From contig VBEF01000038.1 in NCBI GenBank assembly GCA_005881275.1, forward strand, positions 1 through 52,267: a DNA stretch of 52,267 bases. Direction: 5' to 3'. Below the pieces are notes generated by a model that did not search any database, had not been told where the DNA came from, and saw only the letters and a program-made list of their open reading frames with translations. This document shows positions 44,740 to 51,680 of the stretch, in pieces (the stretch's first letter is position 1; the number at the start of each line of letters is the position of its first letter). The translations under genes were made by a program, and so were the position numbers. Source of the DNA: Chloroflexota bacterium. GTDB taxonomy: Bacteria > Chloroflexota > Dormibacteria > Dormibacterales > Dormibacteraceae.

Positions 44740-45687
44740 TCAGGGCAGAACCCGGAACCACAACAGGCTGACCACGGCTCCCAGCAGCACGAGGCTGATG
44801 CCGGAGATCAGGAGCGGAACCATCAAGTTGAGCTGCTGGAACTGCCAGCCGACCTGGGTCGCGAGTGTGCTGTAGATGCTCTGCAGCTCCCCCGCCGCCT
44901 GCGCGTAGTAATACTTCCCGCCGGTTGCGGACGCGATCGCGCTAAGCGTGGCTTCATCGACGCCGCCGACCGGCTCCCCGGCGACCGTCGCCGAGCTGTC
45001 GCGAAGTCCGATCCCAATCGTTTGCACCGGCACTTTCGCCGCCACGATCTCGGGCGTGATCGTGAGCGGGTCGACGCCCTGGTTGGAGGCGCCGTCCGTG
45101 AGAACCACGATCATGGCGGGGCGCGGCTGCACACCCGAAGCGGTACGCGATCCGGGATCCAGCTGACCGAGCGCAAGAGCCAGGGCCGTGCCCAGGGCCG
45201 TGCCACCTCCGGGTTTGAGGCTGGAAACCGCCCCCTTCACGGCCTGGCGATCAGTGGTCAGCCCCTGCTGGAGCGTGGCCGTGGAGCTGAAGCTGATCAG
45301 GGCGATGCGGTCGTCGCCCGGCAGCTGATCGATGAGCGTCGAGGCGGCGTTTTTGGCCGCGTCGAGCCTGGTCGGGGCCACATCGGCGGCCTGCATCGAT
45401 CCGGACACGTCCATGACCAGGACGACGTCAGCGTTGTTCCTTGCGATCTCGAGGTTCAGCACCGGCACCGTCAGCCCGCTCAGCAGAGCGATTCCCCCCA
45501 GCACGAACATGGCCGGCGGAACGTGTCGCCTGATGCCTGGGGTTCGGGGAAGGACCGAGCGCAGCAGTTCGAGGTTGGTGAAGCGCAACGTATAGGCTCG
45601 CCGCCTGCGCTGCGCCAGCACGTAGCCTGCGAGCAGGACGGGAATCGCCAGGAGGCCGAGAAGGAAGGCCGGCTGATAGATGATCAC
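44740..45687 (-). CDS. VWA-domain membrane protein (BatA/BatB-like)
   Basis: 315 residues. Two N-terminal helices (LLGLLAIPVLLAGYVLA and the segment near 60) flank the conserved LRFTNLELLRSV. A von Willebrand A domain follows at about residues 85-280 with a complete MIDAS (DVSGS near 93, then Thr in GGGTALG and Asp in LTDGA). A C-terminal helix ends the protein. Part of the MoxR-DUF58-VWA module, thought to act as a chaperone or envelope-integrity complex. Start overlaps the DUF58 gene by 4 bases. Confidence 0.88.
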   Translation of the reverse strand: MIIYQPAFLLGLLAIPVLLAGYVLAQRRRRAYTLRFTNLELLRSVLPRTPGIRRHVPPAMFVLGGIALLSGLTVPVLNLEIARNNADVVLVMDVSGSMQAADVAPTRLDAAKNAASTLIDQLPGDDRIALISFSSTATLQQGLTTDRQAVKGAVSSLKPGGGTALGTALALALGQLDPGSRTASGVQPRPAMIVVLTDGASNQGVDPLTITPEIVAAKVPVQTIGIGLRDSSATVAGEPVGGVDEATLSAIASATGGKYYYAQAAGELQSIYSTLATQVGWQFQQLNLMVPLLISGISLVLLGAVVSLLWFRVLP

Positions 45688-46631
45688 GCGGGGTGCGCGC
45701 CTCCTCGGCGGCTGACCTCGGCCGAGCGGCGGCGCAGGTACTCGGTGAGCTGGGGCAGGAACGGCTGCGCGGTGGTGATCTCGAACTGGACTGCATGCGC
45801 TCGCTTGAGATCGGTCGAGATGCGCAGGCTCTGCTCGATCGCCGCGAGCTGAAAGCGCTCGCGGAGGCGGCGATCAGAAGTGTCCACATGCAGCTGCCGC
45901 CCGGTCTCAGGGTCCTCAAATGTGACCACGCCGATATCCGGCACTGACATCTCCGCCGGGTCGACCACACGCGCGGCGACGAGCTCATGGCGGTGGCCGA
46001 GAACAGCCATCGGCCTCTGCCAGCCGCCGGCGGCGAGAAAGTCGCTGATCACGATGAGCAGGCCTGGCCGGCGGATGACCTTGACCGCCTGCCAGAGGGC
46101 GGCCGCAAGAGCGGTGGCCGCGCCTGTGGGCGCAGAAGACAGGTCGGCGTCCAGGCTTCCGACCAGATGGAGGCGCCCCCGGCGCCCCGCCACGGGTGGG
46201 AGGATGCGCCGCACGTTCGCGTCGAAGACGATCGCCCCGACGCGGCTGCCATGGCGCGCGATCAGGGAGGACGCGGCGGACGCCATGTCGATGGCCGCCT
46301 CGCGCTTCAGCATCAGGGCGGTACCCCAATCCAGTGAGGCGCTCGCATCGACGATAAGCCAGGCGTCCAGACCTCGGTCGGGATGAGACTCTCGCACGTA
46401 GATGCGGTCGGATCGCGCGGACAGGTTCCAGTCGATCGTGCGGGCATCCTCACCGAATTCGTATTCGCGGCTTTCCGCGTACTCGACGCCGGGGCCTCGC
46501 ACGCTGGAACGTTCGTCGCCCCAGGCGTGAAATCCGAGCCGCTTGAGGATGGGCCACCGCACGCGCCTGAGCGCGTCGTGCTTGAGCAGGTGGCGAAGGC
46601 GGCGTCGCTTGCCGTCAGACGACACGGCCAT
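45684..46631 (-). CDS. DUF58 domain protein
   Basis: 315 residues. The DUF58 signature RGPGVEYAESREYEFGEDARTIDWNLSARSDRIYVRE is at about residues 44-80, followed by a VWA-like core (LIVDASASLDWG near 92). No membrane helix, so cytoplasmic or peripheral. Cotranscribed with moxR (17-base overlap) and the VWA gene; members of this module interact physically in characterised systems. Confidence 0.88.
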   Translation of the reverse strand: MAVSSDGKRRRLRHLLKHDALRRVRWPILKRLGFHAWGDERSSVRGPGVEYAESREYEFGEDARTIDWNLSARSDRIYVRESHPDRGLDAWLIVDASASLDWGTALMLKREAAIDMASAASSLIARHGSRVGAIVFDANVRRILPPVAGRRGRLHLVGSLDADLSSAPTGAATALAAALWQAVKVIRRPGLLIVISDFLAAGGWQRPMAVLGHRHELVAARVVDPAEMSVPDIGVVTFEDPETGRQLHVDTSDRRLRERFQLAAIEQSLRISTDLKRAHAVQFEITTAQPFLPQLTEYLRRRSAEVSRRGGAHPA

Positions 46632-47655
46632 CCCCCAGATCGAGGCGCGGCATTTCCGTCGTTTCGAGGACGCGGCGCACGATTGTGTCGGGGGAAACGC
46701 CGTCTGCTATCCCCTCGTAGCTCAAAACGATCCGGTGCCGCAGGACCTCGGGCGCAACCGCCGCCAGATCCTGGCCCAGCACATAGCTGCGGCCGCGGAT
46801 GAACGCAAGCGCGCGTCCCGCGCTCACCAGGTGAATCGTCGCGCGCGGGCTGCCACCGTAATCGACCGCGGACTCAAGCTCCGCCACGCCGGACGCCTTC
46901 AGGTTGCGTGTCGCCGACACGAGCGTGGTCGCGTACGCGACCACCGCCGGATCGACGTAAACCTTGCGTACCTGACGCTGCAGCTCGAGAAGCTCTTCGG
47001 GCGCGAGCACCTGCTGGACCTGAATGGGTTCGCCGATCATTCGCTGCACGATCCCCATCTCTTCGTGGCTCGACGGATATCCGACGATGACTTTGAGCAT
47101 GAAGCGATCGATCTGCGCTTCCGGGAGCGGGTAGGTGCCGTCGGCCTCGATGGGGTTCTGCGTGGCGAGGACCAGGAAAGGCTCGTCAACCTTGAAGGTC
47201 TCCTTTCCGATCGTGACCTGCCTTTCCTGCATGACCTCGAGCAGGGCCGACTGGACTTTGGCCGGCGCCCGGTTGACCTCGTCAGCGAGAAGAAGGTTGC
47301 AGAAGATGGGCCCGAGCTCGGTGGAAAAGTCAGCCTTGCGCGGGTTGAAGACCCGAGTTCCGACAAGGTCCGATGGAACGAGGTCCGGGGTGAACTGGAT
47401 TCGGCCGAACTTGCCACCGATCGCGGCGGCAAACGCACGGACGGTTGCCGTCTTCGCGAGACCGGGCACTCCCTCGACGAGGATGTGACCACTCGAGAGA
47501 AGCGCGACCAGGACGCGCTCGAGCAGGCGATCCTGGCCCACGATGATCTTGCGGACCTCGAACAGCAGCTGTTCGACTTGCTTGGGTACGCGCGCGGCGT
47601 AGATCTCGGCGGGCGACTTCGAGCTTCCCACAAACGCTTGATCTGGAAGTGACAT
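46615..47655 (-). CDS. MoxR-family AAA+ ATPase
   Basis: 346 residues. Walker A GVPGLAKT near residue 62, Walker B LLLADEVNRAPAKVQSALLEVMQE near 120 and sensor 1 LATQNPIEADGTYPLPEAQIDRFM near 158 are the MoxR hallmarks, with a lid domain at about 230-330. ATP-driven chaperone for the DUF58/VWA proteins encoded next. An AAGGAG lies upstream of the ATG. The PDZ-protease gene precedes it by 32 bp on the same strand, so the four genes form one operon. Confidence 0.92.
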   Translation of the reverse strand: MSLPDQAFVGSSKSPAEIYAARVPKQVEQLLFEVRKIIVGQDRLLERVLVALLSSGHILVEGVPGLAKTATVRAFAAAIGGKFGRIQFTPDLVPSDLVGTRVFNPRKADFSTELGPIFCNLLLADEVNRAPAKVQSALLEVMQERQVTIGKETFKVDEPFLVLATQNPIEADGTYPLPEAQIDRFMLKVIVGYPSSHEEMGIVQRMIGEPIQVQQVLAPEELLELQRQVRKVYVDPAVVAYATTLVSATRNLKASGVAELESAVDYGGSPRATIHLVSAGRALAFIRGRSYVLGQDLAAVAPEVLRHRIVLSYEGIADGVSPDTIVRRVLETTEMPRLDLGDGRVV

Positions 47656-48891: not shown

Positions 48892-49797
48892 CTAGGGGCT
48901 CGCCGTCCTGGCTCGCTGTGCGGTGGCGACGCAGAACAGGACCAGGATCGCGGCTACGATCGTCTGCGGCCGCAGCGGCTCGCCGATGAGCAGCCACGAC
49001 CAGACCACCGACAGCAGCGGTTGCGCCAACTGGGTCGCGCTAACTCGCGCTACGCCCACCAGCCCCATGCCGCGGTACCACAGGACCATGCCTACAAAAA
49101 CCGAGAACACCGCCATGTATCCGAGGGCGGCCAGCGACGCCGCGCTTGGCGTGAAGGGCGAGCTCGCCAGGGCGGCCGCGGTGAGCGGCGCCGAGATCGG
49201 CAGGGCAGCCACCAGACCCCATGCGATCACCTGGCCGCCAGGCATCGTCTGTGCCAGCCGGCCACCCTCGGCATAGGCTGCTGCCGCGAGGATGAGGGCG
49301 GCGACGAGATACGCGTCGCCGACACCGGGCGGCTCCGCTCGAACCCCGGATGCCGCGTACCAGAGGACCACCCCCGTTCCGGCCGCGGTCGCGACCCAGA
49401 AGAGCGGCCGCGGCCTTGCACCCGTGCGCAGCACTCCGAAAAGCGCGGTCAGCATCGGCAGCAAGCCGATCACGATCGAGCCATGGGTCGCGCTGACCGT
49501 GCGAAGCGCCTCCGCGCTGAACCATCCAAAGCCGACGGCTGCGCCCACCGCCACCACTGCAATGCCCGGCATCTGGCGGCGGCTCGGCCACGGCGCCCGG
49601 ATGGCCCATAGGTAGCCGATGGCGATAAGCGCGCCGAGCACTGACCGTCCGACACCCACGACGATCGGGTCGATGCTGGCCACGGCAATGCGTGTGGCAG
49701 GCACGGTGCCGGAGAACATCACAACGGCGAGTGCGGCCAGAGCCAGGCCCGATACCGGTACAGAAGATCGATGGATACCGATACTGGGAGTAGCCAC
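48892..49797 (-). CDS. EamA/DMT-family transporter
   Basis: 301 residues, ten hydrophobic helices in two EamA repeats (residues about 18-140 and 160-295). The second repeat has the typical end WLLIGEPLRPQTIVAAILVLFCV. GTG start at 49797 with no Shine-Dalgarno; a leaderless transcript is possible. Exports or imports a small metabolite such as an amino acid or vitamin. It is divergent from a MocR-type regulator gene (54 bp between starts), which probably controls it. Substrate unknown. Confidence 0.88.
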   Translation of the reverse strand: MATPSIGIHRSSVPVSGLALAALAVVMFSGTVPATRIAVASIDPIVVGVGRSVLGALIAIGYLWAIRAPWPSRRQMPGIAVVAVGAAVGFGWFSAEALRTVSATHGSIVIGLLPMLTALFGVLRTGARPRPLFWVATAAGTGVVLWYAASGVRAEPPGVGDAYLVAALILAAAAYAEGGRLAQTMPGGQVIAWGLVAALPISAPLTAAALASSPFTPSAASLAALGYMAVFSVFVGMVLWYRGMGLVGVARVSATQLAQPLLSVVWSWLLIGEPLRPQTIVAAILVLFCVATAQRARTASP

Positions 49798-49851
49798 GAT
49801 TCACGCTATCACGATCGAGATCAGGGTGCAACTGATACTGTTGAGGCGGCA
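49751..49851. promoter_or_regulatory. Divergent EamA/MocR control region with repeated GATAC[CT]G
   Basis: The 7-mer GATAC[CT]G occurs four times in the same orientation, at 49751, 49774, 49780 and 49834. Three copies are within the first codons of the EamA gene and one overlaps the likely -10 (GATACT) of the regulator gene. Direct repeats near the divergent start are typical for MocR-family binding. Some copies may reflect coding constraint. Confidence 0.4.
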
Positions 49852-51261
49852 ATGAGCGATAGCAGCATCCGCTCTCTAACAGTTGCCCTGCGGTCTCGGG
49901 CGGAGGTGCTGGCCCCTGGGGCACGCTTCCCTTCAACCCGCCAGATCGCGGCCGACTACCACGTCAGCCCCGTTACGGTGTCGCGCGCGCTGGCGATACT
50001 CGGCGCCGAGGGAGTTGTAGGGACACGGCCGGGAGCGGGAACCTTCGTCGCCGACCGAATCGCATCTGCCGAGACGGGGCGCATCGACACCGCCTGGCAG
50101 ACCGTTGCCCTGGGCGACCGCGCGATCGATGCGGGCGCGCTTCAGATCTACCTCGACGCCAATCCGAGGGGCGCATTGTCTCTGGCGGGCGGCTATCTCC
50201 ACCACTCGCTGCTGCCTATCCGGGCGCTGTCGATCGCGGCCCACCGCGCGGTCCGCCGATCGGAATCATGGGAGGCGCCCGAGCCTCGCGGCCTCTCCGG
50301 CCTGAGGGCGTGGTTTGCGAGTCATCACGGCCCGGGGTTCGGCCCAGGCGATGTCATCATCTCCAACGGCGGGCAGTCCGCGATCTCAGCCAGCTTTCGC
50401 GCGCTCGTAGCGGCGGGCGGCACGCTTCTCGTCGAGGCGCCGACCTATCCCGGCGCGCTGGCCATCGCACGCGCCGCCGGTATCCGAGTCGTCCCCGTGC
50501 CGATGGACGGCGACGGGATACTGCCGGGCCTGCTCAGCGAGGCGTTCGAAGTGACCGGCTCGAGGGCGGTCTACCTGCAGCCGACCCATCACAATCCGAC
50601 CGGCATCGTCATGTCCGCCGACCGCCGCCGCGCGGTGCTCGACGTCGCCAGCCGGGCCGGAGCCTTTGTGATCGAGGACGATTGGGCGAGGTGGCTCGGA
50701 TACGACGGGACCAACCCTCCGACGCTCATTTCGATGGACGGCCAGGGTCGCGTCATCTATATCTCGTCGTTGACCAAGCCGGCCGCGCCGAGCCTTCGCA
50801 TCGGAGCGCTTGTCGCTCGCGGCCCGGTCGCCGACCGCCTCAGGGCCATCCGGATGGTGGACGACCTCTTCGTCAACCGTCTGGCGCAGGAGACTGCGCT
50901 CGAGCTGGTCGAGTCGCCAGGTTGGGCACGGCACATCGTGCAGGTCGGCCGGGCGCTGCGGGAACGCCGCCAGGTGGTCGTCGGCGCGCTCGAGGACCAC
51001 GCTCCCGATCTGGTGGTGCCGCGACTGCCGCGGGGAGGGATGCACGTGTGGGCGACTCTTCCCGAAGGTGCCGATGAAGGTGTGATCGCCGAAGTGGGCC
51101 GCCAGCATGGTGTTGTGGTGGGCGCGGGCCGGTCGTTCTTTGCGACTGAGCCGCCGTCGAGTCACTTGCGGCTGAGCTTTGGAGGTGCTGCGCACCACGA
51201 TGAGCTGGTCGAGTCAGTGCGGCGTCTGGGATCAGCGCTCCGGTCGATCCTCACCTCGTGA
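49852..51261 (+). CDS. MocR-family regulator (GntR DNA-binding domain fused to PLP aminotransferase fold)
   Basis: 469 residues. Winged helix at about residues 5-70 (FPSTRQIAADYHVSPVTVSRALAIL, then GAGTFVAD). The class I aminotransferase fold runs from about 110 to the end, with QPTHHNPTGIVM near 243, VIEDDWARWLGYDG near 274 and the PLP lysine K309 in SSLTKPAAPSLRIGALV. MocR regulators use PLP chemistry to sense amines or vitamin B6 and control a neighbouring transporter or biosynthetic gene, here the divergent EamA transporter. Confidence 0.92.
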   Translation: MSDSSIRSLTVALRSRAEVLAPGARFPSTRQIAADYHVSPVTVSRALAILGAEGVVGTRPGAGTFVADRIASAETGRIDTAWQTVALGDRAIDAGALQIYLDANPRGALSLAGGYLHHSLLPIRALSIAAHRAVRRSESWEAPEPRGLSGLRAWFASHHGPGFGPGDVIISNGGQSAISASFRALVAAGGTLLVEAPTYPGALAIARAAGIRVVPVPMDGDGILPGLLSEAFEVTGSRAVYLQPTHHNPTGIVMSADRRRAVLDVASRAGAFVIEDDWARWLGYDGTNPPTLISMDGQGRVIYISSLTKPAAPSLRIGALVARGPVADRLRAIRMVDDLFVNRLAQETALELVESPGWARHIVQVGRALRERRQVVVGALEDHAPDLVVPRLPRGGMHVWATLPEGADEGVIAEVGRQHGVVVGAGRSFFATEPPSSHLRLSFGGAAHHDELVESVRRLGSALRSILTS

Positions 51262-51395
51262 ATGCCACCTGCGAGTTGCATGGGCGGGCGCCTATCACGG
51301 CCCGTCCTCGAGCTAAGTCATGGCTATCCGGTATTGTCAAACGGCAGCCGTTGCGAGTTCTGGCGTGGCGCCGGCGGACCTGGAAAGGAAGCGGA

Positions 51396-51680
51396 ATGAT
51401 CGATCCGAAACATGACGTAGTCGTTGAATACTGCGTACCTTGAAACTATCTCGATGAGGCTGTCCGTGCGGCAGTCGAAATCGCGACAGGGTGGGCCCCC
51501 GTTCTAAGGGGAATCGAACTGCGTTCTGGGGTGAAGGGAGTCTTCAAGGTCTCCATCGATGGAGAAATCGTTTTTGACAAAGCTCGTTTGGGACGCTTTC
51601 CGGACCCCGAGGAAATCATGCCAGCGGTCGAAGCACGTCTCGGGGCGAAGCTTAATTGGCGAAAATCCGAGCGCACTTGA
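51396..51680 (+). CDS. SelW/Rdx-family selenoprotein with in-frame UGA (Sec16)
   Basis: 94 residues if the TGA at 51441-51443 is read as selenocysteine; stop TGA at 51678-51680. An ATG with Shine-Dalgarno AAAGGAAG starts the frame. The protein reads VVVEYCVPU (C13, U16), the CxxU redox motif of the Rdx/SelT-SelW-SelH family, followed by a helix and then GVFKVSIDGEIVFDKARLGR and FPDPEEIM. That is the family's conserved G-x-F-x-V-x-x-D-G ... K ... G-x-FP block. The family normally has CxxU or CxxC, and the UGA falls exactly on the second position. A SECIS-like hairpin follows the UGA at 51459. Thioredoxin-fold redox protein, cytoplasmic. Less G+C-rich than its neighbours, so possibly acquired. 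Automated calling would miss it. Confidence 0.85.
51459..51475 (+). other. Bacterial SECIS-like stem-loop
   Basis: GCTG-T-CC-GTGC-GG-CAGT: a 4-bp lower stem (one G-U pair), a bulged U at 51463, a 2-bp upper stem and a GUGC loop. It begins 15 bases after the UGA, and its loop starts 22 bases after it. A bulged U below a short stem and a G-U in the apical loop are the SelB-recognition elements known from E. coli fdhF. It lies inside the coding region, as bacterial SECIS elements do. Confidence 0.6.

Follow-up and report, generated by a model that had tools for sequence, protein, structure and literature searches.

A UGA-interrupted gene of the Rdx family

The DNA analyzed here (52,267 nucleotides, hereafter the window) corresponds to contig C89 of a 2.94-Mb assembly (127 contigs, 86% complete). 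Judging from the names of the genomes that carry related genes (Candidatus Dormibacteraeota, Dormiibacterota, and Chloroflexi bacterium), the window appears to belong to the Dormibacteria. It contains a gene starting with ATG that, when an in-frame UGA is read as selenocysteine (Sec, U), translates into the SelW-like protein MIDPKHDVVVEYCVPUNYLDEAVRAAVEIATGWAPVLRGIELRSGVKGVFKVSIDGEIVFDKARLGRFPDPEEIMPAVEARLGAKLNWRKSERT (Table 1). The boundaries, length, motif, and UGA position given in a preliminary description of this DNA were all reproduced by this translation. In the translations of most relatives, the equivalent first position is Met or Val. Under translation table 11 the frame ends at the UGA, and the sole open reading frame listed there codes for 61 amino acids (51258-51443), so that a simple gene caller misses the gene, as had been claimed. 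The label "unannotatable by default" was overstated, since a curated model for CxxU proteins (TIGR02174) exists.

Table 1. Features of the SelW-like gene and its surroundings (window coordinates)
Feature	Coordinates	Strand	Details
SelW-like (Rdx family, CxxU) selenoprotein gene	51396..51680	+	94 residues plus stop TGA (51678-51680); family matches, relatives
UGA as predicted selenocysteine codon, residue 16 of CVPU	51441..51443	+	Translation; TGA here in 77/78 relatives
CVPU redox motif, residues 13-16	51432..51443	+	Translation, alignment
Putative ribosome-binding-like AAAGGAAG	51384..51391	+	4 bases upstream of the ATG; by sequence only
Putative bacterial SECIS hairpin	51452..51483	+	-12.4 kcal/mol; loop 21 nt after the UGA
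SECIS upper stem	51458-51464 with 51470-51476	+	7 bp
SECIS loop CGUGC	51465-51469	+	5 nt, G second
SECIS lower stem	51452-51455 with 51480-51483	+	4 bp

Given the local base composition, a frame would stay open by chance for 78 codons after the UGA in about 6% of cases; by itself such openness is weak evidence, and the match to the Rdx family exceeds chance. Searched against the family as the preliminary description had suggested, with C in place of U, the translation surpassed the cutoffs of both Pfam Rdx (PF10262; 59.9 bits versus 22.6; E value, 2.8e-16; residues 8-79) and TIGR02174 (44.6 bits versus 34.2). The PF10262 alignment spans both sides of the UGA, in agreement with the earlier statement that one family continues across it.

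A model predicted by AlphaFold2 from 25 window and locus sequences (mean pLDDT, 92.9) consists of a strand (residues 6-13), a helix (19-36), three further strands, and helices at 62-65 and 74-82, with CVPU located between the first strand and the first helix. A profile search of solved chains retrieved 3dex, 2fa8, 2oka, 2obk, 2ojl, 2p0g, and C17orf37 (2ljk) at E values of 1.7e-16 to 4e-9, each matched over most of its length. Two of them are labeled as relatives (2obk, SelT/selW/selH domain; 2p0g, Selenoprotein W-related), and the chains without a family label are, from this match, probably Rdx proteins as well. A chain labeled Selenoprotein W (2npb) matched the family profile weakly (E value, 0.33). 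The likeness of the SelW-like protein to these solved relatives is one of sequence, and its fold is probably thioredoxin-like.

Conservation of the UGA codon

Among 110 genomes of the class, 36 carry an Rdx gene, giving 37 matches, every one of them with exactly one TGA (37/37). All but one are of the CVPU type, and translation of these 36 genes showed that the frame stays open past the UGA; homologues with a disrupted frame, which the preliminary description had named as a sign of a pseudogene, were thus not encountered in the class set. The remaining match reads CNSU and represents a second, divergent SelW-like gene of genome G071 (L059, G071:C134:2770-2970). We found no Cys form of the CVPU-type gene in the 110 Dormibacteria genomes examined.

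A wider scan, of named genomes, used an alignment with X at residue 16; it relied on a single CVPx peptide pattern built from Sec forms and therefore sampled the CVPU branch only. Of the 78 relatives that it gave, 77 had TGA at this position and one, belonging to another Chloroflexi genome (L172), had TGT (Cys). By sequence, 33 of these relatives are Dormibacterial (L103-L134 and L153), a part that overlaps the class set, with many of the same contigs, so that the two sets are not independent; the other 45 fall outside, mostly in the Acidimicrobiia. The SelW-like relatives share the signature CVPU-[ND]-[YH], and the Dormibacterial genes also have WAP. In a draw of 400 genomes from the phylum, 185 had Rdx, and among the best 150 listed matches a hand count gave 53 without a stop and 97 with one TGA. 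Seven of the stop-free genes were read, and all seven have Cys at the position of the UGA.

Selenocysteine machinery and other UGA-containing genes

The preliminary description implied that the genome encodes the Sec machinery, and its four components were all found in the assembly from which the window comes, each over its cutoff. The genes selA (504.7 bits) and selB (341.3 bits), both over the curated cutoff, adjoin on contig C19; selD (287.7 bits), with one TGA inside, is on C118; and a tRNA-Sec (69.3 bits; anticodon tca by ARAGORN) is on C39. A lack of sel genes, put forward at the outset as grounds for doubt, is therefore not what the genome presents. The window itself contains no tRNA according to ARAGORN.

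Several other genes of this genome acquire known Sec motifs when their UGA is read as Sec. SelD becomes SHGAGUACK, which fits UxxK, and two FdhA-like genes, on C34 (CNRTUHAPSVAGL) and C50 (ARVUHGPTVVSLAATFG), fit the UHxP of formate dehydrogenase, both motifs being given in a 2026 review (PMC13188914); the two FdhA-like matches score under the FdhA family cutoff. A peroxiredoxin (L189, G000:C37:10888-11277) reads TGGUR, fits the TxxU motif of a 2008 survey (PMC2398784), and is probably a further selenoprotein.

Across 101 relatives, selA was present in 77. It occurred in 35 of the 36 Rdx-bearing genomes versus 42 of the 65 without Rdx (Fisher p of 1.5e-4, with relatedness ignored), and the sole Rdx-bearing genome without a selA match (G031) is 71% complete. 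In families f2 and f4, many genomes have selA and no Rdx match is listed.

A putative SECIS hairpin after the UGA

A published bacterial SECIS model places the hairpin 16 to 37 nt from the UGA, with a loop of 3 to 9 nt that has G in one of its first two positions, an upper stem of 4 to 16 bp, and an energy of -7.5 or lower (PMC13188914). The hairpin in the window lies within these limits (5-nt loop, 7 bp, 21 nt, and -7.6 kcal/mol for the upper stem alone or -12.4 kcal/mol for 32 nt), and an Rfam scan of the window at gathering thresholds returned no match.

Folding stability was compared with that of sequences in which synonymous codons had been shuffled within each gene. For the window, a 54-nt stretch was unexceptional (z of -1.12), while pieces of 32 nt (z of -2.60) and 19 nt (z of -2.18), picked after the 54-nt fold had been seen, were more stable. 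Over the 36 CVPU-type genes, an even scan of 34 stretches of 24 nt, which came after eight stretches had been tried, was most stable at 13 to 36 nt from the UGA (mean z of -1.0; 34/36 negative). The next-best stretches were 7 to 30, which overlaps it (mean z of -0.63), and 103 to 126 (mean z of -0.60); the 54-nt stretch gave a weaker signal (mean z of -0.49; 24/36 negative). The same test on other Sec genes of the phylum gave a mean z of -1.06 (21/23 negative) versus -0.38 (4/7 negative) for Cys genes, a small control; together these are the 30 loci that scored highest in the phylum draw, near-identical pairs included.

Two hairpin registers occur in the family, that of the window (columns 18-24 paired with 30-36) and a second one (15-20 with 26-31) whose loop is four bases nearer the UGA. 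By pair-count cutoffs, the first register is formed by the window and by 14 of the 35 other Dormibacterial genes, the remaining 21 forming the second. Among 44 Sec genes outside the Dormibacteria, again by pair-count cutoffs, the first was assigned to 2 genes, the second to 30, and neither to 12. The Cys relative L172 forms neither. The register mostly, although not always, tracks the choice between GTC and GTG for Val at columns 22-24.

Compensatory changes are strong in the second register and modest in the window's own. The set for the second register (A3, columns 15-31) comprised the remaining relatives, paired or not, minus L153 (shortened sequence) and L172 (Cys); its 56 distinct sequences yielded 33 cells with both sides changed versus 11.1 in shuffles (0/500 as high), and one pair, that of columns 18 and 28, shows compensatory G-C, C-G, and U-A. 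The set for the window's register (A2, columns 18-36) was selected by pairing, which leans its pairing toward structure; its 17 sequences yielded 5 such cells versus 2.1 (13/500 shuffles as high), and further pair types were not above those of the shuffles (418/500). The loop of the FdhA-like gene on C34, GGUCU, recurs in several relatives. The loop of Escherichia coli fdhF is likewise GGUCU.

Gene history and neighborhood

A tree built from 47 rows and 89 columns places the window gene among genes from three other genera (98/90), apart from the other two Rdx genes that its own genus has. A constraint keeping the genus together was rejected (AU p of 0.003), in a test made after the difference had been noticed in both the sequences and the tree. 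From the UGA to its end, the gene has the lowest GC3 of the 36 (0.557; the next is 0.696), in a locus with a GC of 0.647 whose upstream gene has a GC3 of 0.773, and Rdx is present in only 3 of the 17 genomes from the genus. The simplest reading is that the window copy may have been transferred. An old duplication with loss is possible instead, and the tree brought to this question has few columns. A search of viral contigs with the single protein returned no relative.

Most of the 79 Rdx loci have no conserved operon partner, as judged from gene clusters around them, and for this reason we propose no functional partner. The two largest neighbor clusters (19 and 18 loci) run across Rdx itself on the complementary strand and were read as antisense frames; the remaining clusters comprise at most 16 loci each, mostly at varying distances. 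In the window, a MocR-like GntR/aminotransferase regulator (49771-51261, +) lies directly upstream of the selenoprotein gene, with no match at an E value of 1e-60 or lower in 16 other genomes of the genus. On the minus strand, a gene broken by the contig end (51766-52266) matches VCPO_2nd (PF22778), a second helical-bundle domain, with 79.1 bits, and genes for a MoxR-type AAA ATPase, a DUF58 protein, and a VWA/BatA protein follow in succession at 44740-47655.

A probable SelW-like selenoprotein and the alternatives

We consider the locus to be a functional bacterial SelW-like (Rdx, CxxU) selenoprotein gene of a Dormibacteria (Chloroflexota) bacterium, with a probability of about 0.96. Following the established course of bacterial Sec insertion, we infer that SelD and SelA would make Sec-tRNA-Sec, that SelB would bring it to the ribosome and bind the SECIS hairpin just 3' of the UGA, and that Sec would be inserted at residue 16 in place of termination. 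The product would be a small alpha/beta protein carrying Cys13 and Sec16 between its first strand and first helix, and it would most likely act as a thiol/selenol oxidoreductase via a Cys13-Sec16 selenenyl-sulfide.

If the gene were instead the remnant of a CxxC form of Rdx, with the codon for the second Cys mutated to a stop, its patchy presence in the genus and a base composition unlike that of its neighbors would fit, and Cys forms of Rdx do occur in the phylum. Such a pseudogene is nevertheless already contradicted by conservation, the same TGA and an open frame recurring throughout the class matches and in all but one of the wider relatives, and with the sel genes in the genome and the hairpin signal from shuffles and covariation also against it, we regard it as very improbable. 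Even less credible is that the UGA is read as another residue, through genome-wide reassignment or near-cognate readthrough. The frame would remain open past the UGA whichever residue entered, but the genome has a tRNA-Sec with anticodon tca together with SelA, SelB, and SelD; UGA occupies the Sec position in four further genes, all from known selenoprotein families; the sole relative without TGA has a Cys codon; and the SelW-like gene itself, like several relatives, ends in UGA.

A different doubt concerns the hairpin, which could result incidentally from codon conservation and GC richness, with Sec inserted by means of another signal. The moderate covariation of the window's register, the 12 of 44 non-Dormibacterial Sec relatives that fit neither register, and the slightly negative lean of the Cys genes speak for this. 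Yet the shuffle signal peaks at 13 to 36 nt and is repeated in other Sec genes, compensatory pairs occur at columns 18-28, and the published limits on loop, spacing, and energy are satisfied, so that a by-product is improbable.

Beyond the selenoprotein reading itself, we tentatively suggest that the CVPU branch is nearly Sec-locked, a self-contained cassette travelling among Sec-equipped bacteria, and that the window copy came from another Dormibacterial genus, although we hold this to be somewhat doubtful. The suggestion follows from a gene that carries its own SECIS within 285 bases, from the lack of a Cys form in the Dormibacteria examined, and from a nearly Sec-only group in the Acidimicrobiia. 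If true, the branch would be well suited to testing why certain proteins do not revert to Cys.

Relation to known SelW-like selenoproteins

Genes of this kind have long been described, SelW-like proteins being counted among known selenoproteins in a 2005 paper on the Sargasso Sea (PMC1088965), and the present gene is a further member. A 2006 bacterial survey reported 10 SelW-like selenoproteins, noted that Cys forms are absent or very scarce in organisms that use Sec, and counted three selenoprotein families in Chloroflexi (PMC1794560); in a table of the 2008 ocean survey SelW-like proteins are the most numerous family (427 Sec versus 56 Cys; PMC2398784). The 2026 review describes them as "predicted with high confidence" rather than experimentally verified, and calls the exact functions of the operon-linked ones unknown (PMC13188914). 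Bacterial SelW-like selenoproteins (PMC1088965, PMC1794560, PMC2398784, and PMC13188914) resemble the window gene in PF10262, CxxU, a SECIS just after the UGA, and the few Cys forms among close relatives; it differs in CVPU-[ND]-[YH], the Dormibacterial WAP, and a possible transfer within the class. Compared with TIGR02174 (CXXU_selWTH), of which positions 1-73 of 74 are covered, the protein shows ordinary divergence only. Its best NCBIfam match is the equivalog NF041051 (SelTWH_Campy) at 64.8 bits, and because this lies under the curated cutoff of 88, the protein is not placed in that narrower group.

Neither Dormibacteria nor Acidimicrobiia are named in the passages on SelW-like selenoproteins of these papers and the review (PMC1088965, PMC1794560, PMC2398784, and PMC13188914), and the main text of deep-Sep (PMC12013277) does not contain SelW, Rdx, Chloroflexi, Chloroflexota, or Dormi. 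A literature search, mostly of open-access coverage and for the spelling Dormibacter only, found nothing linking it with selenocysteine or selenoprotein. For the uncultured Dormibacteria, Sec use is here indicated in at least four known families (SelD, FdhA-like, peroxiredoxin, and SelW-like), of which the SelW-like gene is lost whenever a gene caller treats all UGA codons as stops. With its conserved Sec and mapped hairpin, this natural set offers material for Sec-to-Cys tests. Such genes may well be included in a groundwater survey, mentioned by the 2026 review (PMC13188914), that covers more than 44,000 MAGs.
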